Source of the DNA: Lentzea sp. NEAU-D7
GTDB taxonomy: Bacteria > Actinomycetota > Actinomycetes > Mycobacteriales > Pseudonocardiaceae
Direction of reading: 5' to 3'
Length of the DNA: 64,000 nt
NCBI RefSeq assembly: GCF_026242055.1
Contig: NZ_JAPJDL010000027.1
Span: forward strand, 1-64,000
Numbering within the stretch: the stretch's first letter is position 1; each line of letters opens with the position of its first letter. Positions 5,647 through 24,941 of this stretch are shown one piece after another. The notes below the pieces were generated by a model. That model was not told the DNA's origin. It saw only the letters and a program-made list of their open reading frames with translations, and made no database searches. Made by a program: the position numbers and the translations under genes.

Positions 5647-6423
5647 TTACAGCTGAGCGGTGATCACGTCGTAGTAGGTGGCGATGCGGCCGTACACGCC
5701 GGGGTAACCGGCGGCGGCGCAGCCACGGCCCCACGAGGTGTCACCGATGAGCTTGCCGCCGAACACCAGCGGGCCACCGGAGTCGCCCTGGCAGGTGTCC
5801 ACGCCGCCCTGCGGGAAGCCGGCGCACACCATCGAGGAGTTGCTGTACTGCGAGTACGCGGTCTTGCAGGTCGCGTCCGAGGTCAGCGGCACGTTGGCCT
5901 TGAGCAGGTAGCGCGAGGCGGAACCACCGGAGGAGGTGGTGCCCCAGCCGAGGATCAGCGCCGAGTTGCCCGCCGCGTAGAGCGCGGTGTCGGACGGCGT
6001 GGCCAGCGGCAGGGTGGCCGAGCTGATGTTGCGGTCCAGCGTCAGCACGGCGACGTCGAAGCCGGACGTCGCGGTGCGGTAGCTCGGGTGGACCCAGATG
6101 CGGGTGACGCTCGCGACGGTGCCCGCGGTGCTCTGCTTGTCGTCACGTCCGTGCACGACGCGCGTGCTGGAGGCCGAGCGGCCGGACACGCAGTGGGCGG
6201 CCGTGACGACCTTGTTGGCCTTCACGAGCGTTCCACCGCAGAACTGCGATCCGGAGGTCGACGCCAGGTAGACGACCCACGGATAGGTCGAGGTGCTCGC
6301 CCGCGTGCCACCGACGATCATCGGCGACACGTCCCCGGCGTTGGCCGCGGGGGCGACGAAGAAGATGCTCGCGAGAGCGGACACCACGACGGACACGATC
6401 AGGCGATGCAGGGTTTTCGCCAT
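5647..6423 (-). CDS. Secreted trypsin-like serine protease (S1)
   Basis: Extracellular chymotrypsin-fold endopeptidase, 258 aa from MAKTLHRLIV, supported by GGAAGGA about 10 nt upstream. A Sec signal peptide (about residues 1-29, ending AANA) is followed by a very short propeptide and the activation site IVGG. Catalytic triad: His in TAAHC, Asp in FDVAVL, Ser in GDSGGP. The Asp in DTCQGDSGG, six residues before the Ser, predicts trypsin-like Arg/Lys specificity. Six Cys residues sit at usual S1 disulfide positions. It is one of three S1 paralogues in this window (others at 20.5 and 24.2 kb). Confidence 0.95.
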   Translation of the reverse strand: MAKTLHRLIVSVVVSALASIFFVAPAANAGDVSPMIVGGTRASTSTYPWVVYLASTSGSQFCGGTLVKANKVVTAAHCVSGRSASSTRVVHGRDDKQSTAGTVASVTRIWVHPSYRTATSGFDVAVLTLDRNISSATLPLATPSDTALYAAGNSALILGWGTTSSGGSASRYLLKANVPLTSDATCKTAYSQYSNSSMVCAGFPQGGVDTCQGDSGGPLVFGGKLIGDTSWGRGCAAAGYPGVYGRIATYYDVITAQL

Positions 6424-6547
6424 GTTGCCAGTCCTTCCCGATGACACTGTGTGTGCAGGGTGTACAGCGACAGCACACACAGCGTCACGGGCGGAGATTC
6501 AGCAGCACAACCGCCTTTTGTCTGTTCAGGGCGGTTTGACTTTTGAC

Positions 6548-8025: not shown

Positions 8026-9282
8026 TCAGCCTTCCAGAACTCCGGGAACAACAATCACGTCGGCTTCGACCGGAATGTCCAGTGTCGGTCCGGCTCCGAA
8101 AGCGATGAACGCGACCGCCGCACCACGAGCGGCCAGGTCGAACGCGCCCTCGTGCCCGACCTCGGTGCCGGAGCGCAGCAGCGGGCGCACGGACTCGATC
8201 GCCTCGGGCGACCCGATCACGAACGCCGCACGCCGGATCTCCGCCTCCGCGCGAGGCGTGCGCTGCTCGGCCGGACCCGGCCCGAGCCCGACCAGCGCGA
8301 GCCGGCCGCGCGGCAGCACCCGCGCCGCGGCCACCGTCACGTTGTCCCGCTTGAACTTCTCGGCCGCCAGCTCGATCGGCCCGCCGAGCCCGACGCTGCG
8401 CGCGCCGCGCAACGCGGCCGCCTCCGCGACGCTCGCGGTGCCCATCGAGTTGCGCACCACCGAGCTCGGGTTCGGCACCCCGATCTCGGCGAGCTCGCCT
8501 GTCGGGAACGTCAGCAGCTCGGCCGTGTCGCCGTGCCAGAAACCCCAGTCCTCCACCGCGTCCACGATGCCGGGTTCGTCCGCCTTGACGTCCGCCGTCG
8601 CGAACGCCTTGATGGCACGCAGGTCCAGGCCGCCCTGAACGTCCAGCTCGGACAGTGCGGCACCCACGCTCGTGGCCGACGCACCGCGCGTCGACCCCAC
8701 TCCGACGACGAGCGTGCGCGGCACGATCCGCAGCACGTTCTCCTTCGCCGCGGCGGCCCGGTCGTCCACGACGATGACCCACGTCGCGTCCTCACCACCT
8801 GCCACGACGTTGGGCGGCAACGCGGGCAGCGGAAAGTTCAGCGGGTTGCGCAGCACGACCTTCTCGCCCGCCTCGATGGCGGCGGTGCAGGCCTCGACGT
8901 CGCCGACCGCGGTGGCGTCGAGCTGCTCGACCAGCTCGTCCAGCATCGAGTCGACCAGCGGACCGCTCGTCACCACGGCGGTGCGGTTCAGCACGTCGGC
9001 GACGTGGCGGGTGAACACGTCCGCGTCGCCGGCCAGCGCGACGACGAAGTGCTCGTCCACGCACACCACGGCGGGGTCGGATCGCTTGTCCCGCAACAGG
9101 GGCGCGACCAGCCGCACGGCGGAGCCCGCGTCCAGGAACAGCACGACGGCGCCCAGGCGGGGCCAGAGGCTGCGGACGGCGGGCTTGACCGGGCCGTCGG
9201 GGACGACGGCATCGGCTCCGAGCAGCCCGGCGAGGTCGGCGGCGTCACCGCGCTGCGCCGGGCCGGCGAACACTCCGATCAC
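8026..9282 (-). CDS. CbiG fused to a truncated CobJ domain (B12 operon, last gene)
   Basis: CbiG is cobalt-precorrin-5A hydrolase, the acetaldehyde-releasing step of corrin synthesis; in actinobacteria it is often fused to CobJ (precorrin-3B C17-methyltransferase). GTG at 9282 gives 418 aa with a 4-bp GTGA overlap with cobL. Residues 1-190 resemble CbiG N-terminal and middle regions (VRLVAPLLRDKRSDP), but the usual GGHxxGAN segment is replaced by AGDADVF (83-89). Residues 190-320 are the CbiG C-terminal domain (VVGVGSTRG, ADVKADEPG, VPNPSSVV). Residues 326-418 begin as a CobJ domain (VGLGPG) but stop right after VPGV (412-415). The GDxGVY catalytic segment and the whole second half, about 150 residues, are missing. 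The frame itself is intact. The enzyme is either non-functional or repurposed. Confidence 0.82.
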   Translation of the reverse strand: MIGVFAGPAQRGDAADLAGLLGADAVVPDGPVKPAVRSLWPRLGAVVLFLDAGSAVRLVAPLLRDKRSDPAVVCVDEHFVVALAGDADVFTRHVADVLNRTAVVTSGPLVDSMLDELVEQLDATAVGDVEACTAAIEAGEKVVLRNPLNFPLPALPPNVVAGGEDATWVIVVDDRAAAAKENVLRIVPRTLVVGVGSTRGASATSVGAALSELDVQGGLDLRAIKAFATADVKADEPGIVDAVEDWGFWHGDTAELLTFPTGELAEIGVPNPSSVVRNSMGTASVAEAAALRGARSVGLGGPIELAAEKFKRDNVTVAAARVLPRGRLALVGLGPGPAEQRTPRAEAEIRRAAFVIGSPEAIESVRPLLRSGTEVGHEGAFDLAARGAAVAFIAFGAGPTLDIPVEADVIVVPGVLEG

Positions 9283-10100
9283 TTCTTGCTTCCCCACAAC
9301 ACGGTCACCGGGACCGCCGGGGCGAATCCCGAGTCCAGCAGGCGCGAGGCCGTCCAGTGCACGCCCTCGACCTCGTACCCGGCGGCCTGCAACGCGTCGC
9401 GCGCGGGCACGATCTCGTCGACGCTCTCCGTCACGACCACGACCCGGCGCGCCGACACCGCCGCCGAGGCCTTGACCGCGCTCAGCTGACCACGGCCGAC
9501 GAACACCGAGTCCGGGCGCGGCAGCGAAGGCGCGTCCAGCTCGGACTCCTCGACGCGGACGTCGACGCCGTGCGCGGAGGCGTTCGCGATGATCCGCACG
9601 CACTCGACGGGGTCCGGCTCGACCGCGATCACGGCGGCACCCAGCCGGGCGCACTCCACACCGACCGCACCGGAACCCGCGAGCACGTCCCACACCAGCA
9701 CGCCGGGACGCGGGGCGAGGCGGGCCAGCACGAACGCGCGCACCTCGGCGCCGAGCACGTGGGCGCGGCTCGAGAAGGCGTCGTCCGGAAGTGCCCAGCC
9801 GTCGTTCGAACGGAGGAACTCGTTGTCCGCCAGGCACAACACGGCGTCCGGGGCGGTCCAGCGGCGCGTCACCGCGTCCCTCGGGTCGACGGCGACCAGC
9901 TCACCGGCGTCCTGCACCGTCAGCGTGCGGCGCCAGCCCGCGAGGCCGGCACCGATCTCGGCAGGCCCGATGCCCTCGGCGAGCCTGACGATCACGGCGG
10001 AGTGGGCGCGGCACACGTTCAGCGCGGGCCGCAGGCCGTCCTCGACGTCGACGACCTCGACGGGACGGCCCGCTGCCTCGCGCAGCTTCTCCAGCGACAT
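9279..10100 (-). CDS. Truncated CobL: partial CbiE plus CbiT-type methyltransferase domain
   Basis: CobL is precorrin-6Y C5,15-methyltransferase (decarboxylating), normally about 400 aa: a CbiE half (C5 methylation) and a CbiT half (C15 methylation, decarboxylation). Here only 273 aa remain. Residues 1-92 match just the second half of CbiE; its SAM-binding first half with the GDP loop is absent. Residues 93-273 are a Rossmann-type CbiT domain with WDVLAGSG at 137-144 (usually DVGAGSG) and VEPDP. The ATG overlaps the cobM stop by one base (TGATG), and a stop codon in the same frame lies immediately upstream at 10104-10106, so no longer product is encoded. The C15 activity might survive; the C5 activity should not. 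Confidence 0.8.
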   Translation of the reverse strand: MSLEKLREAAGRPVEVVDVEDGLRPALNVCRAHSAVIVRLAEGIGPAEIGAGLAGWRRTLTVQDAGELVAVDPRDAVTRRWTAPDAVLCLADNEFLRSNDGWALPDDAFSSRAHVLGAEVRAFVLARLAPRPGVLVWDVLAGSGAVGVECARLGAAVIAVEPDPVECVRIIANASAHGVDVRVEESELDAPSLPRPDSVFVGRGQLSAVKASAAVSARRVVVVTESVDEIVPARDALQAAGYEVEGVHWTASRLLDSGFAPAVPVTVLWGSKK

Positions 10101-11137
10101 CAGTCAGCAGACCGCTTGGGCTTGCGGGCCGGCTTCTTCCTCGGCGTGGACGTCGAGGCGTTGACCGTCGGCGGCTTCGGCTTCCCCGCCGCGACCACCG
10201 TCAGCTTCGGCTTCGGCGCCGGCTCCTCGGCGGGCTTGCGCACGGACTGCTGTATTTCCTCCACCGCCGTCCACGCCGGGTTCGGCTCGGCCGCGGGGGT
10301 GGTGGGCACGGCGGGAGCGGGAGCCGGGATCGGCTCGTCCGTGCGCGTCGCGATGCGCGAGGCGGCGCGGCGCGACCAGCGGGTGGGGCGGGCGGCGCGC
10401 AGCGGTTCGTCCGCCGAGCCCGTGGCCGTCGCCGAGACACGACGCGTGGGCGCCTTCACCGCGGCACCGACGAGGAACAACGTCGGGCGGTACAGCTTGT
10501 GCTGCTTCACGACCGACTCCAGCTCGGCGATCGTGGTGTGCACGACCAGCTCGTCGGCCTGGCTCACCTTGTACGCGACGACGACCGGCGTGGTCTCGGA
10601 GTACCCGCCCTGCAGCAGCTTCTCCACGAACTGGCCGGTGCGCGCGCCCGAGACCGTGGCGGCCATCGTGGTCTGCAGCGCGGCGAACTCGCTCACGAGC
10701 TCGCTGCTCTCCGGCGAGATCAGCACCGTGGACGACGCCTCGGTCTGCGTGAGCTCGCGGCCGATCTTGGCGGCCGCGGCGGCGACGACGGAGACGCCCG
10801 GCACGACCTCGACCTCGAGGCCGAGACGCACGCACAGGTCGTGCTGCTCCTGAACGCCACCACCGGTCGCGGCGTCCCCCGCGTGCAGGCGCACGACGAC
10901 CTGGCGCGCGGCGGCCGCACGGCGGTACACGTCCGTGATCTCCTCGGGCGTGACGCGCGAGAAGTCGACCAGCTCGGCGTCGGCGCGGGCGTGCTCGCGG
11001 ACGCACTCGGCGTCCACCGCGCTGGGTGCCCAGACGACCACGTCGGCTTCGGCGATGCGGCGAGCGCCTCGGAGGGTGATGAGGTCGGCGGCACCGGGAC
11101 CGGCGCCGACGAAGGAGACCCGACCGGTCGTCGTCAC
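10100..11137 (-). CDS. CobM/CbiF-like precorrin-4 C11-methyltransferase, divergent, with Lys/Pro-rich tail
   Basis: CobM methylates C11 of precorrin-4 using SAM. The N-terminal 230 residues are clearly of this family: VGAGPGAADLIT, VVRLH, VPGVS, and a VVVAYK-like segment. The catalytic loop, normally HSGDP followed by (S/A)-hydrophobic-(Y/W)-G, reads HAGDAATGGG (85-94), so the Pro and aromatic residue are lost. The usual ELT(I/V)P segment reads ELTQT. The conserved C-terminus is replaced by a 115-residue low-complexity tail (231-345) rich in Ala, Pro, Lys and Arg, ending KKPARKPKRSAD. GTG at 11137 has GGAG at good spacing. It is probably impaired as a methyltransferase; the basic tail could bind nucleic acid or simply be drift. 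Confidence 0.8.
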   Translation of the reverse strand: MTTTGRVSFVGAGPGAADLITLRGARRIAEADVVVWAPSAVDAECVREHARADAELVDFSRVTPEEITDVYRRAAAARQVVVRLHAGDAATGGGVQEQHDLCVRLGLEVEVVPGVSVVAAAAAKIGRELTQTEASSTVLISPESSELVSEFAALQTTMAATVSGARTGQFVEKLLQGGYSETTPVVVAYKVSQADELVVHTTIAELESVVKQHKLYRPTLFLVGAAVKAPTRRVSATATGSADEPLRAARPTRWSRRAASRIATRTDEPIPAPAPAVPTTPAAEPNPAWTAVEEIQQSVRKPAEEPAPKPKLTVVAAGKPKPPTVNASTSTPRKKPARKPKRSAD

Positions 11138-11167: not shown

Positions 11168-12544
11168 TTAAGCGATGACCGTACCGTCTGCCACTCCGGC
11201 CACGAACGGGTGGCAGGCCCGCACGAAACGGGCTACGGCCTCCGGATCACCGGCCGGGTGCGTGTGGAGGTACGACGCGTGCACGCCGCCCGCCACGAAG
11301 CCCTCGGCGACCGGCCGCGAGTCGACTCCGCGCCAGTGCCACGCGGGCGGGACGGAGTGCGGTGTGGACAGCTGCGTGCGGTGGAACTCGTGCCCGGTCA
11401 CGCGGCTGCCCGGCGGGTGCAGCGGCGAACCCGTGGACGCCACCGCGTCACGGTACCCCAGCGTCAGCTTCGGCGTCATGAACCCGTCGGCGTCGAGCAC
11501 GCCGCACATCGGGTGTCCGTCGAGCGACCTCGCGAGGTACAGCAACCCTCCGCACTCGGCGTGGACCGGCGCACCCGATCGAGCGAACCGCGCCACCGCG
11601 TCGCGCAGCTTCACGTTGGCCGACAGCGCTTCCGCGTGCTGCTCGGGAAAACCGCCGGGCAGGACGAGTCCCGCCGTGCCCTCCGGGAGATCTTCGTCGT
11701 GCAGCGGGTCGAGCACGGCCACGGCCGCGCCCGCCGCCTTCAGCACCTCCACGTGCTCGGCGTAGCCGAAGGTGAAGGCCGCTCCCCCGGCGACCGCGAT
11801 CACCGGTTCGTCCTCGACGCGCTCGACCCGGGGTTCCCACGCGGAGACCGCCATCGTGGGCACCGACGACGCCAGCCTGCGCACCGCGTCGAGATCGACG
11901 TGCTTGGCCACCGCGGCGGCGATCGCGTCCACCGCGGCCACGGCCTCCGGGCCGTGCTCCGCCGCCGTCACGAGCCCCAGGTGCCGTGAGGGCAAGGAGA
12001 ACTGCGGATCGCGCGGCAGCACGCCGAGCACGTCGAGGCCGACCTCGTCGCACGCGGACCGGAGCACCTGCTCGTGCCGTTCCGACCCGACCTGGTTGAG
12101 GATCACGCCGCCGAGCCGGACCGTCGGGTCGTAGCCGCGGAACCCGTGCAACAGCGCGGCGAGCGACCGGCTCTGCCCGCGGGCGTCCACGACGAACAGC
12201 ACCGGTGCGTTGATCAGCTTGGCGACGTGCGCGGTGGAGCCGATGCCCGCGGTGTCGATGCGGCCGTCGAACAGCCCCATCACGCCCTCGACCACGGCGA
12301 TGTCGCAGCCCTTCGAGCCGTGCGCGAACAGGCCGGGGATGCGGTGCTCACCGACCATGACCGGGTCGAGGTTGCGGCCCGGTCTCCCGGTCGCCAGCGA
12401 GTGGTAGCCGGGGTCGATGTAGTCGGGCCCCACCTTGAACGGCGCGACCCGCGACCCGGCCGCGCGCAACGCGGCCATCAGCCCCGTCGCGACCGTGGTC
12501 TTGCCGCTGCCCGAGGCCGGGGCCGCGACGACCAGCCTGGTCAC
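11168..12544 (-). CDS. cobB: Cobyrinate a,c-diamide synthase
   Basis: ATP- and glutamine-dependent amidation of the a and c side chains of cobyrinic acid (or hydrogenobyrinic acid). The 458-aa protein has the N-terminal P-loop ASGSGKTT (residues 10-17), then VGPDYIDPGYH and EGVMGLFDG typical of CobB/CbiA, and a C-terminal class I glutamine amidotransferase domain with the nucleophile in HAECGGLLYL. The start is GTG at 12544, giving a GTGA overlap with cobO; a GTG three bases upstream is an alternative. Unlike the three genes downstream, every expected motif is present. Confidence 0.94.
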   Translation of the reverse strand: MTRLVVAAPASGSGKTTVATGLMAALRAAGSRVAPFKVGPDYIDPGYHSLATGRPGRNLDPVMVGEHRIPGLFAHGSKGCDIAVVEGVMGLFDGRIDTAGIGSTAHVAKLINAPVLFVVDARGQSRSLAALLHGFRGYDPTVRLGGVILNQVGSERHEQVLRSACDEVGLDVLGVLPRDPQFSLPSRHLGLVTAAEHGPEAVAAVDAIAAAVAKHVDLDAVRRLASSVPTMAVSAWEPRVERVEDEPVIAVAGGAAFTFGYAEHVEVLKAAGAAVAVLDPLHDEDLPEGTAGLVLPGGFPEQHAEALSANVKLRDAVARFARSGAPVHAECGGLLYLARSLDGHPMCGVLDADGFMTPKLTLGYRDAVASTGSPLHPPGSRVTGHEFHRTQLSTPHSVPPAWHWRGVDSRPVAEGFVAGGVHASYLHTHPAGDPEAVARFVRACHPFVAGVADGTVIA

Positions 12545-13155
12545 CACTCGATCCCCCGCTGGCCCTTCTGCCCGGCGTCCATCGGGTGCTTGACCTTGGT
12601 CATCTCCACCACGAGGTCGGCGGCGTCGACCAGCTTCTGCGGCGCGTACCGGCCGGTGATGACGACGTGCTGGTGCCCTGGGCGGTTCGTCAGCGTCTCC
12701 ACGACCTCGTCGACGTCGATCCAGCCCCAGTGCAGCGGGTAGGTGAACTCGTCGAGCACGTAGAAGCCGTGGCGTTCGGCGTTGATCCTGCGCTGGATCT
12801 CGTGCCAGCCCTCGAGCGCGGCCGTGGCGTGGTCGTCCTCGGTGCCCTGCTTGCGGGTCCAGGACCAGCCCTCGCCCATCTTGTGCCACTCGACGGCGCC
12901 GCCCTCGCCGGTCTCGTCGTGCAGCCGGCCGAGCGCCTTGAACGCGGACTCCTCGCCCACCTTCCACTTGGCGGACTTCACGAACTGGAACACGCCGATG
13001 TCCCAGCCCTGGTTCCAGCCGCGCAACGCCATGCCGAAGGCCGACGTCGACTTCCCCTTCATCTCACCGGTGTGCAGCATCAGCAACGGCCTGTTCCGGC
13101 GCTGGCGCGTGGTCAGGCCGTCCTTCGGCACCTCGGTGGGTTGTCCTTGAGGCAC
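12541..13155 (-). CDS. cobO: Cob(I)alamin/cob(I)yrinate a,c-diamide adenosyltransferase
   Basis: Transfers adenosyl from ATP to Co(I) corrinoids (CobO/BtuR type), used in both de novo synthesis and salvage. The Walker A region reads HTGEMKGKSTSAFG; WNQGWDIGVFQF, MGEGWSW, VLDEFTYPLHWGW and the ending AGQKGQRGIEW follow the family closely. The start is GTG at 13155 (204 aa), with AGGAG about 9 nt upstream; the ATG at 13236 would add an unsupported 27-residue extension. It overlaps cobB by 4 bp. All catalytic motifs look intact. Confidence 0.95.
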   Translation of the reverse strand: MPQGQPTEVPKDGLTTRQRRNRPLLMLHTGEMKGKSTSAFGMALRGWNQGWDIGVFQFVKSAKWKVGEESAFKALGRLHDETGEGGAVEWHKMGEGWSWTRKQGTEDDHATAALEGWHEIQRRINAERHGFYVLDEFTYPLHWGWIDVDEVVETLTNRPGHQHVVITGRYAPQKLVDAADLVVEMTKVKHPMDAGQKGQRGIEW

Positions 13156-13232
13156 TGGGTTCTCCTTGCTCGTGGGTCGCTGCTCCGCAGACTCCGGTGA
13201 GTTCGCCGGGAAGCTGGTCGTCCGGCGCGAAC

Positions 13233-15155
13233 TCACGCGGCCCGGACGACGCCGGCGAGGTGGTCGGCGCTGAGCTGGTCGAGCTGGACGCAGGTGCCCC
13301 GCAGCGCGTCGGCGATCTTCTGGGCGAGGCCGAGGCGGACGTGGCCCTGTTCGCAGTCCACGACCACGACAGCGGTCTTCTCGAGCAGTCCGGCGGCCTT
13401 CAACGCGTCCTTCGTCGGGTCGCCGCCCAGGCCGGACGACGTCGCGCGGCCGTCCGTCAGCAGCACCACGAGCGGGCGCTTGCGCGGGTCGCGCATCCGT
13501 TCGACCTCCAGGACGCGGTGGGCCTTCAGCAGGCCGTCGGCGAGCGGCGTCCGGCCGCCGGTGCGCATCTTCTTCAGGCGCGTGGCCGCCGCGTCGACCG
13601 ACGTCGTCGGGGGCAGCGCGAGCTCGGCCTGGCTGCCGCGGAACGTCACCACGCCGACCTTGTCCCGGCGCTGGTAGGCGTCGCGCAGCAGCGAGATCAC
13701 CGCGCCGCTGACGGCCGACATCCGCTTCTGCGCGGCCATCGAGCCGGAGGCGTCGACGACGAAGAGGACGAGGTTCGACTCCTTGCCCTCCCGGACGGCC
13801 TTGCGCAGGTCGGCGGCGGTGAGCAGCAGTCCGGGACCGCTGCGCCCCCGCTCCGCCTGGTGGGGTGCCGCGTTCGTGAGCGTGTCGACCAGGTGCAGGC
13901 CGCTGCCGTCCACCTTGGACGAACGGACGATCCGGCCGGTGCGGGCGCGGGCCCGGGAACGCTTGCCGGGCGCGCCTTCGCCGACTCCGGGGACCTCCAG
14001 CAGCCGCGCCTTGAACGCGGGCGCGGGCTCCGGTGCCGGACGGTCCTGGGGCGCGTTCCCGTTGCCCTTGGGGCCTTCCTGCGGTTCGGGCAGCTCACCA
14101 CCGCCGGGACCGTCGTCGTCCGGGCCTTCGTCGTCCGGGCCTTCGTCGTCCGGTTCCCCGGCGTGCTCGGCCGCCTCGCGCATCGCGTCCTCGAGCTGCT
14201 GCTCCTCGATGCCGGGCTCGTCGAACGGGTCGCGGCGGCGCCGGTGCGGCAGGGCGAGCCTGACCGCCGCCTCGACGTCCTGCTCCTCGACCTCGGTCGC
14301 GCCCCGCCAGGCCGCGTGGGCGGTGGCGGTACGGGCGACGACGAGGTCCGCGCGCATGCCGTCGACCTCGAAAGCCGCGCAGACGGCGGCGATGCGGCGC
14401 ACCTCACCGTCCGGAAGGGACACGTGGGGCAGCCTGGTGCGCGCGTCGATGATCTGCTGCTTGAGCGCGGCGTCGTGGTCCGACCAGACGGCGGCGAACT
14501 CCCCGGGGCTGTTCTCGTAGCCGAGCCGGCGCTTGATCACCTCGTAGCGCGTGGAGACGTCCCGCGACGCCTTGACGGCCACCGTGAGCCCGAACCGGTC
14601 GAGCAGCTGCGGCCGCAGCTCGCCCTCCTCCGGGTTCATGGTGCCCACCAGCAGGAACTGCGACGGGTGCGAGACCGAGACGCCCTCGCGCTCGACGTGC
14701 GCGCGACCCATCGCGGCGGCGTCGAGCAGCAGGTCGACCAGGTGGTCGTGCAGCAGGTTGACCTCGTCGACGTAGAGCACGCCGCGGTGCGCCGCGGCCA
14801 GCAGGCCGGGCTGGAACGCCCGCACGCCCTCGGTCAGGGCCTTCTCCAGGTCGAGCGAGCCGACCAGCCGGTCCTCGGTGGCGCCGACGGGCAGTTCCAC
14901 GAGCCGGGCCGGGCGCCGTTCGACACCGTCGTGCGGCGCGTCGGGGCAGTCGGTGGTGCCCGGCGCGCAGCCGAAGCGGCAGCCCCGGGACACGTCGAGC
15001 TCGGGCAGCAACGCGGCGAGGGCGCGCACGATCGTCGACTTCGCCGTGCCCTTCTCACCGCGGACGAGCACGCCGCCGATGGCGGGGTGCACCGCGTTCA
15101 GCAGCAGGGCGAGCCGGAGGTCGTCATGGCCGACGACAGCCGAAAAGGGGTACAT
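13233..15155 (-). CDS. BchI/BchD-like AAA+ plus VWA chelatase protein (putative cobaltochelatase subunit)
   Basis: A 640-aa fusion of a magnesium-chelatase subunit I-like AAA+ ATPase and a subunit D-like von Willebrand A domain, thought to drive CobN-dependent cobalt insertion in actinobacteria. Walker A is [23 protein letters not shown] is the Walker B/sensor region. An acidic linker of DDEGP repeats follows (about residues 345-370), then the VWA domain with the MIDAS motif DASGSM. ATG at 15155 follows a GGAAGGA. It is the first gene after the cobalamin riboswitch and precedes cobO by 77 bp. The large CobN subunit is not in this window. Confidence 0.9.
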
Positions 15156-15184
15156 GCTCGGCGAAGTCCTTCCTCGGGTGTCCA

Positions 15185-15340
15185 CGCCCGCGGTCGGTGA
15201 TCAAGAGGGGAACGAGTTCCTGACTCCCGGTTCTCTCACTACCGGTCACAGTCGCGGGACGGCGCCGGATTCGCACCGGCTTCCTCGCACTCCCCTCACA
15301 GCCCCGGCATCGTCGCACTTCGCACCGCCAGGTCCAACAG
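15185..15340 (-). promoter_or_regulatory. Cobalamin (AdoCbl) riboswitch
   Basis: On the minus strand this leader contains the conserved cobalamin-riboswitch core: GGAAGCCGGTGCGAATCCGGC, then GTCCCGCGACTGTGACCGG, then the B12 box region GGGAGTCAGGAACTC. It also has the 5' GGTGC element further upstream near 15315-15325. The leader sits 30 to 185 nt before the chelatase-like gene and should repress the chelatase-cobO-cobB-cobM-cobL-cbiG operon when adenosylcobalamin is plentiful. The outer boundaries are approximate; the core identification is firm. Confidence 0.95.
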
Positions 15341-24164: not shown

Positions 24165-24941
24165 CTACGGGTCGACAACCGCCGGCGGCGAAGCGTCGAC
24201 GACCGAGTGGAGCTCCTCGGCGTAGCGGGAGATCCGGACGTACACGCCCGGCTTGTTCCTGCGCGCGCAGCCCTCGCCCCACGACGTGACGCCGACGAGC
24301 TTGCCGCCCACCACGATCGGGCCGCCCGAGTCGCCCTGGCAGGTGTCGACCTTGCCGCCCTCGTACCCGGCGCAGAACATGTCCGCCTTCACGAACTGCG
24401 GGTAGGTGTCCACGCAGAACTCGTCCGGCAGCACCGGCAGGCTGGCCTGCATCAGGAAGCGGGACGTCTTGCCGTTCTCGGACGTGCGCCCCCAGCCGAG
24501 CGCGCGCAGCATCGTGCCGGGCTCGTACAGCGCCTGGTCGGACGGTTCGGCGAACGGCAGCGGCTCGTACGGCAGCGGCTCCTGCAGGGTCAGGACGGCG
24601 ACGTCCTCGCCCTCGTCCGCGGAGACGTACTGCTGGTGGATCCAGATCTTCGCGACACCGGCCACCACCCCGGCCCTGCGGTCCTGCTTGTCCTCGCGAC
24701 CGGCGACGACCTGCAGTTCCCTCGGCGAGCGGCCGAGCGCGCAGTGGGCGGCGGTGAGCACCTTCGACGGTGCGACGATCGTGCCGCCGCAGAACTGGGC
24801 GCCGCGGGCGTCGACCAGGTAGACGGCCCACGGGTTGGCCTTGATGGACGCCCGCTCGCCGCCGACGATCCGTTCGTCGGCGGCGGCGGTGCCCGTTGCG
24901 GCGAGCATTGTGGAGAGAACCAACACCAGGAGTCGTCTCAT
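24165..24941 (-). CDS. Secreted trypsin-like serine protease (S1)
   Basis: Third S1 paralogue of the window, 258 aa. The signal peptide ends near residue 21 (GTAAA); the mature N-terminus is IVGG after a DER tripeptide. Triad: TAAHC, EDVAVL, GDSGGP, with the trypsin-type Asp in VDTCQGDSGG. A Pro/Val-rich tail (DASPPAVVDP) extends past the catalytic domain. The gene ends one base from the convergent STAND-regulator stop. Confidence 0.95.
   Translation of the reverse strand: MRRLLVLVLSTMLAATGTAAADERIVGGERASIKANPWAVYLVDARGAQFCGGTIVAPSKVLTAAHCALGRSPRELQVVAGREDKQDRRAGVVAGVAKIWIHQQYVSADEGEDVAVLTLQEPLPYEPLPFAEPSDQALYEPGTMLRALGWGRTSENGKTSRFLMQASLPVLPDEFCVDTYPQFVKADMFCAGYEGGKVDTCQGDSGGPIVVGGKLVGVTSWGEGCARRNKPGVYVRISRYAEELHSVVDASPPAVVDP

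Follow-up and report, generated by a model that had tools for sequence, protein, structure and literature searches.

Lentzea sp. NEAU-D7 (genome G000; 9.3 Mb in 43 contigs) carries a vitamin B12 operon in which three consecutive genes, cobM2, cobL2 and cbiG-cobJ' (cbiGJ2), lack catalytic elements of the corrin-synthesis enzymes to which they are related, and yet all three reading frames are open. Why are such genes kept? The operon lies on contig NZ_JAPJDL010000027.1 within the window, that is, the whole stretch of 64,000 nucleotides analysed here. We consider it probable that the trio is the remnant of a displaced anaerobic-type operon, the products of which are retained to assist the aerobic pathway without themselves being catalytic. 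By family name alone these genes would be counted as methylases despite the missing catalytic elements. In the literature collection searched, no paper was found on Lentzea cobalamin biosynthesis, on precorrin pseudoenzymes or on precorrin in Pseudonocardiaceae. In the comparisons, L denotes a locus, G a genome and g a genus.

Loss of catalytic elements in three open genes

The operon is read from the minus strand in the order riboswitch, chlID, cobO, cobB, cobM2, cobL2 and cbiG-cobJ', and its genes span positions 15185-8026. The trio and its altered parts are as follows:

10100..11137, minus strand: cobM2, 345 residues, precorrin-4 methylase fold without the catalytic loops, plus a C-terminal tail (PF00590, TIGR01465, alignment)
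10856..10885, minus strand: substituted GDP loop in CobM2 (residues 85-94), HAGDAATGGG (alignment, Lentzea loci)
9279..10100, minus strand: cobL2, 273 residues, CbiE second domain (residues ~1-100) and CbiT with altered motif I (TIGR02469, 46.4 bits)
8026..9282, minus strand: cbiG-cobJ', 418 residues, CbiG without GGHxGGAN, CbiG_C kept, first domain only of CobJ (Pfam, alignment)
8029..8310, minus strand: residues 325-418, the first of the two CobJ domains, without the signature loop (Pfam, alignment)

As the original prediction had claimed, the three genes were consecutive, with a 1-bp overlap (TGATG) between cobM2 and cobL2 and a 4-bp overlap (GTGA) between cobL2 and cbiG-cobJ', and neither an internal stop nor a frameshift was present. 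The GDP loop had been described as lost in three different ways, and this was also found: by substitution in CobM2, by absence of the first domain of CbiE, and by absence of the second domain of CobJ. Beyond these, we found that CbiG had lost GGHxGGAN, CbiT the first glycine of motif I, and CobM2 its 'LTRLEGGKTP' loop, and that CobM2 carried a basic tail of about 120 residues. None of the trio proteins reached the NCBIfam cut-offs for CobM, CbiT, CbiG or CobJ.

In particular, CobM2 exceeded the cut-off of the tetrapyrrole-methylase fold (PF00590, 131.3 bits; cut-off 27.8) and fell below that of the CobM equivalog (TIGR01465, 194.4 versus 259.65 bits). Its GDP loop reads HAGDAATGGG in place of the HSGDPxLWG of intact relatives, and across the examined loci the GDAAT form was confined to Lentzea. 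By sequence, CobM2 resembles the precorrin-4 methylases CobM and CbiF (4e16, 1cbf) in possessing the whole fold; in contrast to them, it has lost the GDP loop and a loop that follows, and it bears a long basic tail in which a motif is conserved.

CobL2 begins at the first helix of the second domain of CbiE, and no match to the CbiE model was found up to an E-value of 0.1. It also stayed below the CbiT equivalog (46.4 versus 78.3 bits). In cbiG-cobJ', two CbiG domains exceeded their cut-offs (PF11760, CbiG_N, 55.8 bits; PF01890, CbiG_C, 94.2 bits); GGHxGGAN, which the intact relatives have in common, is gone, and the best hydrolase model gave 87.9 bits against a cut-off of 326. The CobJ part stops at the interdomain 'VPGV' and lacks the second domain (PF00590, 26.4 bits, under the cut-off). 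Structure predictions of CobL2 and cbiGJ2, made with five Lentzea sequences each, gave mean predicted local distance difference test (pLDDT) values of 46.6 and 40.9, respectively, and were not used as evidence.

Conservation and selection within Lentzea

CobM2 was present in 23/23 other Lentzea genomes, and CobL2 and CbiG_C were each present in 22/23; the single gap was G012, in which the contig ends inside cobM2. In the single-contig genome G002 (L065), five of the six operon genes contained frameshifts, intact genes included, which is probably an uncorrected assembly. All 21 usable other loci had three open frames, the GDAAT form of CobM2, a CbiG without GGHxGGAN and the same CobJ stop. Lengths in these 21 genomes ranged from 272 to 275 residues for CobL2 and from 416 to 418 residues for cbiGJ2. 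Named relatives of this Lentzea, at 88-95% for CobL2, were L. californiensis, L. xinjiangensis, L. albidocapillata and L. aerocolonigenes.

The ratio of nonsynonymous to synonymous substitution rates (dN/dS) was obtained by pairwise counting (Nei-Gojobori style) without a codon model. Across 22 sequences including the window, the medians were 0.219 for cobM2, 0.177 for cobL2 and 0.170 for cbiGJ2, as compared with 0.148 for chlID, 0.180 for cobO and 0.103 for cobB. Six genes of the second set described below (contig C18; 18-20 sequences) gave 0.113-0.228, with cobF and cobN outside this test. The trio (0.17-0.22) thus stands beside nine intact cob genes (0.103-0.228). The corresponding ratio of nonsynonymous to synonymous differences (pN/pS) within Lentzea was lowest in the CobM2 tail motif (0.146, the lowest within CobM2), in CbiG_C (0.170, against 0.249-0.312 elsewhere in cbiGJ2) and in CbiT (0.186), and laxest in the CbiE remnant (CbiE', 0.370) and the tail end of CobM2 (0.398). 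It is well supported by these sequence comparisons that the trio has lost its catalytic elements and evolves under purifying selection.

These values bear on plain pseudogenisation, in which the trio would be disappearing and would persist for now only because selection for chlID, cobO and cobB maintains the operon. Successive catalytic losses, the prior loss of cobI and cbiD, and the two least constrained segments, CbiE' and the CobM2 tail end, fit such a course. However, the low dN/dS, the nearly fixed lengths, the 0 broken frames in the 21 usable genomes and a shortened CbiE common to three genera all speak against it, and a useful location in an operon does not by itself produce selection on amino acids. 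The original prediction had named dN/dS near 1 as the sign of plain decay; by that measure decay fails, and we regard it as very unlikely.

A second, complete aerobic set

A methylase-fold search of the same genome returned ten places. Contig C18 carried cobL, cobM, cobK, cobIJ, cobH, cobG and cobN, and CobF was found on C41; the second intact set for which the original prediction had proposed a search is thus present. The CobL domains, CobM, CobK, CobI, CobJ, CobH and CobF exceeded curated cut-offs, as did CobN (1128 bits; cut-off 822). CobG scored 142 bits, below its cut-off of 235, and two cysteine pairs (CX5C and CX3C) are present in its sequence. Because this aerobic set is complete, B12 synthesis is encoded in the genome, and the window adds the chelatase subunit, CobO, CobB, cysG and CobQ. 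The chlID product of the window is likely the partner of the CobN encoded on C18. In the aerobic set, an adenosylcobalamin (AdoCbl) riboswitch separates cobG from cobN (L011, 11750-11845), such that both loci bear a B12 riboswitch.

Judged from the synthesis genes, the earlier suggestion that de novo synthesis is being lost in favour of corrinoid salvage is not supported: the aerobic set is complete, six of its genes are under purifying selection, and a riboswitch precedes cobN. CobO, CobB and CobQ could also be used in salvage, and even so we find this explanation scarcely credible. The data agree with the other suggestion, that of a new role under riboswitch control, except that the trio appears to be a displaced second set and not the degenerating only set.

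The trio might still be enzymatic with changed chemistry, the CbiT of CobL2 or CobM2 methylating a late or a non-B12 substrate. CbiT is well constrained, as noted above, and in the relatives of g43 and g44 motif I is largely preserved, as GAGPG or AAGPG, together with FVGGG, and CobM2 retains GDPSLWG in 4/6 loci. In the other Lentzea loci, however, LAGSG and FVGRG were found in 20/21 and GDAAT in 21/21, and complete CobL and CobM proteins already exist in the C18 set. On balance, a changed chemistry seems unlikely.

Whole operons in relatives and erosion alongside CobG

We compared the window with corresponding loci in relatives. Four loci from other families (L075, L076, L077 and L079) contained an anaerobic-type operon in the order chlID-cobO-cobB-cobI-cobM-cbiD-cobL-cbiG/cobJ. 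In the same family, Pseudonocardiaceae, cobI, cobM, cbiD, cobL and a full cbiG/cobJ occurred together in L122, L123 and L142. No CobG match that counts was found in these seven genomes (at best E 4.5e-4, in G057). The window resembles these operons (L077, L122) in locus order after chlID-cobO-cobB, where fetched, in its closest sequences and in the riboswitch, present in L077; it differs in having no cobI or cbiD and in the domains and loops missing from CobM, CobL, CbiG and CobJ. In a tree of CobM domains, Lentzea, g43, g44 and g54 formed one clade (100/99). Among 200 genomes of the family, 112 had a close relative of CobM2 (E up to 1e-35) and 152 had CobG.

The erosion of the operon was scored in 50 loci (6 from Lentzea, 40 from others of the family and 4 from other families), of which 31 were accompanied by CobG and 19 were not. 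The CobJ loop was kept in 0/31 loci with CobG and in 11/19 without, GGHxGGAN of CbiG in 0/31 and 10/19, the CbiE loop in 4/31 and 16/19, and the CbiT motif in 7/31 and 15/19. For the LTRLEGG loop of CobM the counts were 3/31 and 10/19 (p 0.0019); since the loop patterns were written after the alignments had been seen and the genomes are related, p-values here are descriptive.

The losses occurred at different times, the truncation of CobJ being the most widespread and probably recurrent, as judged from the alignments and the tree. One position between the two domains marks the end of CobJ in the Lentzea clade, in g12, g13 and g68, and in g10; these groups lie apart in the tree, so truncation probably took place two or three times. 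The start of CobL2 varied by no more than a few residues and fell on one helix in Lentzea, g44 (L116, L118, L147) and g43 (L117, L141), and this common start in three genera suggests a single deletion predating the genus. Sequence identity across genera, a rough measure because the intact and eroded groups differ in breadth, fell from 0.795 in 7 intact family members, where it was the best conserved part, to 0.469 in 11 eroded ones for the first domain of CobJ, and from 0.719 to 0.566 for CbiG_N (7 versus 11). For 7 intact and 12 eroded sequences, the respective identities were 0.783 and 0.616 in CobM2, 0.663 and 0.508 in the second domain of CbiE, and 0.692 and 0.597 in CbiT. The CobJ part was therefore the most relaxed.

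The truncated CobJ (CobJ') and CbiE' could in principle pair in trans, supplying the first and second domains of one methylase fold. They are complementary orphan domains that each break off where the two domains meet, and their genes adjoin in Lentzea, g43 and g44. However, CobJ' stands beside a full-length CbiE in several genera (G078, G034, G035, G032 and G092), which indicates that the two pieces are not of common origin in time and weakens the case for a split enzyme. CbiE' is also weakly constrained, and an ordinary active site is not to be expected from the pair, as the CobJ signature loop has been deleted. Such an enzyme is highly improbable.

Two further arrangements were observed in CobG-negative genomes. 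In G029 and G025 (L113, L114), a separate cobM and cobJ lie near cbiX, and the old operon is partly reduced. In g41 (L124, L143, L144), we found cobI, a tailed CobM2, CobL and a CbiG ending before CobJ, with a second CobM elsewhere.

The CbiG C-terminal domain and CobE

The middle of cbiGJ2 points to a companion protein of the aerobic pathway. The domain concerned is the following:

8311..8715, minus strand: CbiG_C/CobE-like domain, residues 190-324 (only PF01890 match in the genome)

CobE is a possible carrier of intermediates, and to our knowledge its role is unsettled. The CobE structure 2w6l matched residues 187-325 of cbiGJ2 (E 1.2e-9), and 2w6k matched as well. CobE is thus homologous to this domain and accompanies the aerobic, CobG-type pathway; the difference is that the Lentzea domain forms the middle of a 418-residue CbiG-CobJ' protein, and that single-domain versions are limited to relatives, L072 and L073 among them. 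The third gene was reduced to CbiG_C in G028 and G029, at ~136 and 134 residues by crude gene calling. In five CobG-positive genomes (G027, G039, G047, G050 and G055), CbiG_C was the sole CbiG-like stretch found (in G027 by Pfam only); in G027, G039 and G055 it lay immediately downstream of cobB, and in G047 and G050 the distance to cobB was 1.4-2.6 kb. We regard cbiGJ2, with moderate support from these comparisons, as a putative CobE equivalent in the aerobic pathway.

CobM2 and its tail

Two features distinguish the C-terminal part of CobM2:

10103..10462, minus strand: low-complexity tail, residues 226-345, Lys/Arg-rich at its end (alignment)
10223..10282, minus strand: short conserved tail motif NPAWTAVEEIQQSVRKPAEE, (D/E)xAWWAVRxWQExAR-like in other genera

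The motif was present in 21/21 other Lentzea loci and, by pattern, in 25/45 CobM loci. A low-complexity tail ending in Lys/Arg occurred in most loci of the family and was absent from L128, L133 and the four loci outside the family; the tail had one other, weak match in the genome (E 0.0014). Tail and tryptophan motif were also found in the whole operons L122, L123 and L142 and are therefore independent of catalytic loss. The tryptophan motif spans many Pseudonocardiaceae genera and is a candidate docking element. As a guess, the tail and its motif might bind a working enzyme or carboxylated intermediates.

A proposed history: a displaced operon with retained helpers

The history that best accommodates these observations would be one in which an aerobic-type (CobG/CobF) set took over as the working pathway and left a corrin operon of the anaerobic (CbiD/CbiG) type without a need. 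cobI and cbiD would have been dropped, and CobM, CobL, CbiG and CobJ would have eroded. The remnants may act non-catalytically in B12 synthesis, a role suggested by the B12 riboswitch that they are predicted to share with chlID, cobO and cobB. The last protein most likely replaces CobE, the aerobic-pathway accessory protein homologous to CbiG_C. CobM2, with its precorrin-binding fold and basic tail, and CobL2 might hold or hand over intermediates or bind working enzymes; these two helper roles are put forward tentatively, on weak support. It is argued in PMC4663756 that CobK buries its product and then passes it along; on that view, helper proteins are plausible. According to a review (PMC8123684), extra copies of cobA and cobE in P. 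denitrificans raised the yield by 20%.

Several observations count against this history. The CobM2 GDP loop taken alone was not tied to CobG (kept in 12/31 with and 12/19 without; p 0.14, likewise descriptive). Eight CobG-negative loci had no CobJ loop (G029, G025, G065, G102, G183, G069, G143 and G076); cobM and cobJ were found elsewhere for G029 and G025, the only two of the eight followed. No CbiG_C match was found in 10/20 CobG-positive relatives outside Lentzea. Across genera, CbiG_C and the middle stretch of CbiG behaved alike in the same rough comparison: identity fell from 0.646 to 0.544 in the former and from 0.602 to 0.504 in the latter. In a table of one review (PMC5282855), hydrogenobyrinic acid was made by E. 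coli strains with and without cobE. Additionally, the CobE idea leaves CobM2 and CobL2 unexplained, and in g65 and g49 (L132, L134, L145, L146) CobM2 was the only one of the three found within the 7 kb retrieved.

A bolder version is possible, if doubtful: in Pseudonocardiaceae, disabled corrin methylases may repeatedly have been recruited to a complex that serves aerobic B12 synthesis as a carrier or in assembly, without enzymatic activity, with CbiG_C as CobE, CobM2 as the holding fold that docks a working enzyme through its tail and tryptophan motif, and the CobJ and CbiE halves as structural parts. With the displaced operon as the preferred reading, the loci form a natural series that starts with the whole operon and ends with one remaining domain, in which one B12 pathway displaces another and the parts that go last can be followed. 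The retained parts would point to non-catalytic functions such as that of CobE.

Intact genes of the operon and its surroundings

The remaining elements of the operon are as follows:

15194..15309, minus strand: cobalamin riboswitch ahead of chlID (Rfam RF00174, 49.2 bits; gathering threshold 31.5)
13233..15185, minus strand: chlID, cobaltochelatase ATPase subunit, complete (TIGR02442, 797 bits; cut-off 779)
12541..13236, minus strand: cobO, corrinoid adenosyltransferase, complete (TIGR00708, 244 bits; cut-off 168)
11168..12544, minus strand: cobB, a,c-diamide synthase, complete (NF002204, 511 bits; cut-off 254)

The chelatase gene, cobO, cobB, cobQ and cysG had been described as intact at the outset, and NCBIfam cut-offs were reached by chlID, cobO, cobB, cobQ and the uroporphyrinogen-methylase domain of cysG. 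A riboswitch also lay directly 5' of chlID in 6/9 relatives' loci scanned (L045, L067, L069, L072, L077 and L107). Two genes for secreted trypsin-like serine proteases, similar by eye, are located at 5647-6480 and 24165-24941 of the window; one adjoins the operon, and the other lies ~9 kb past its upstream end.

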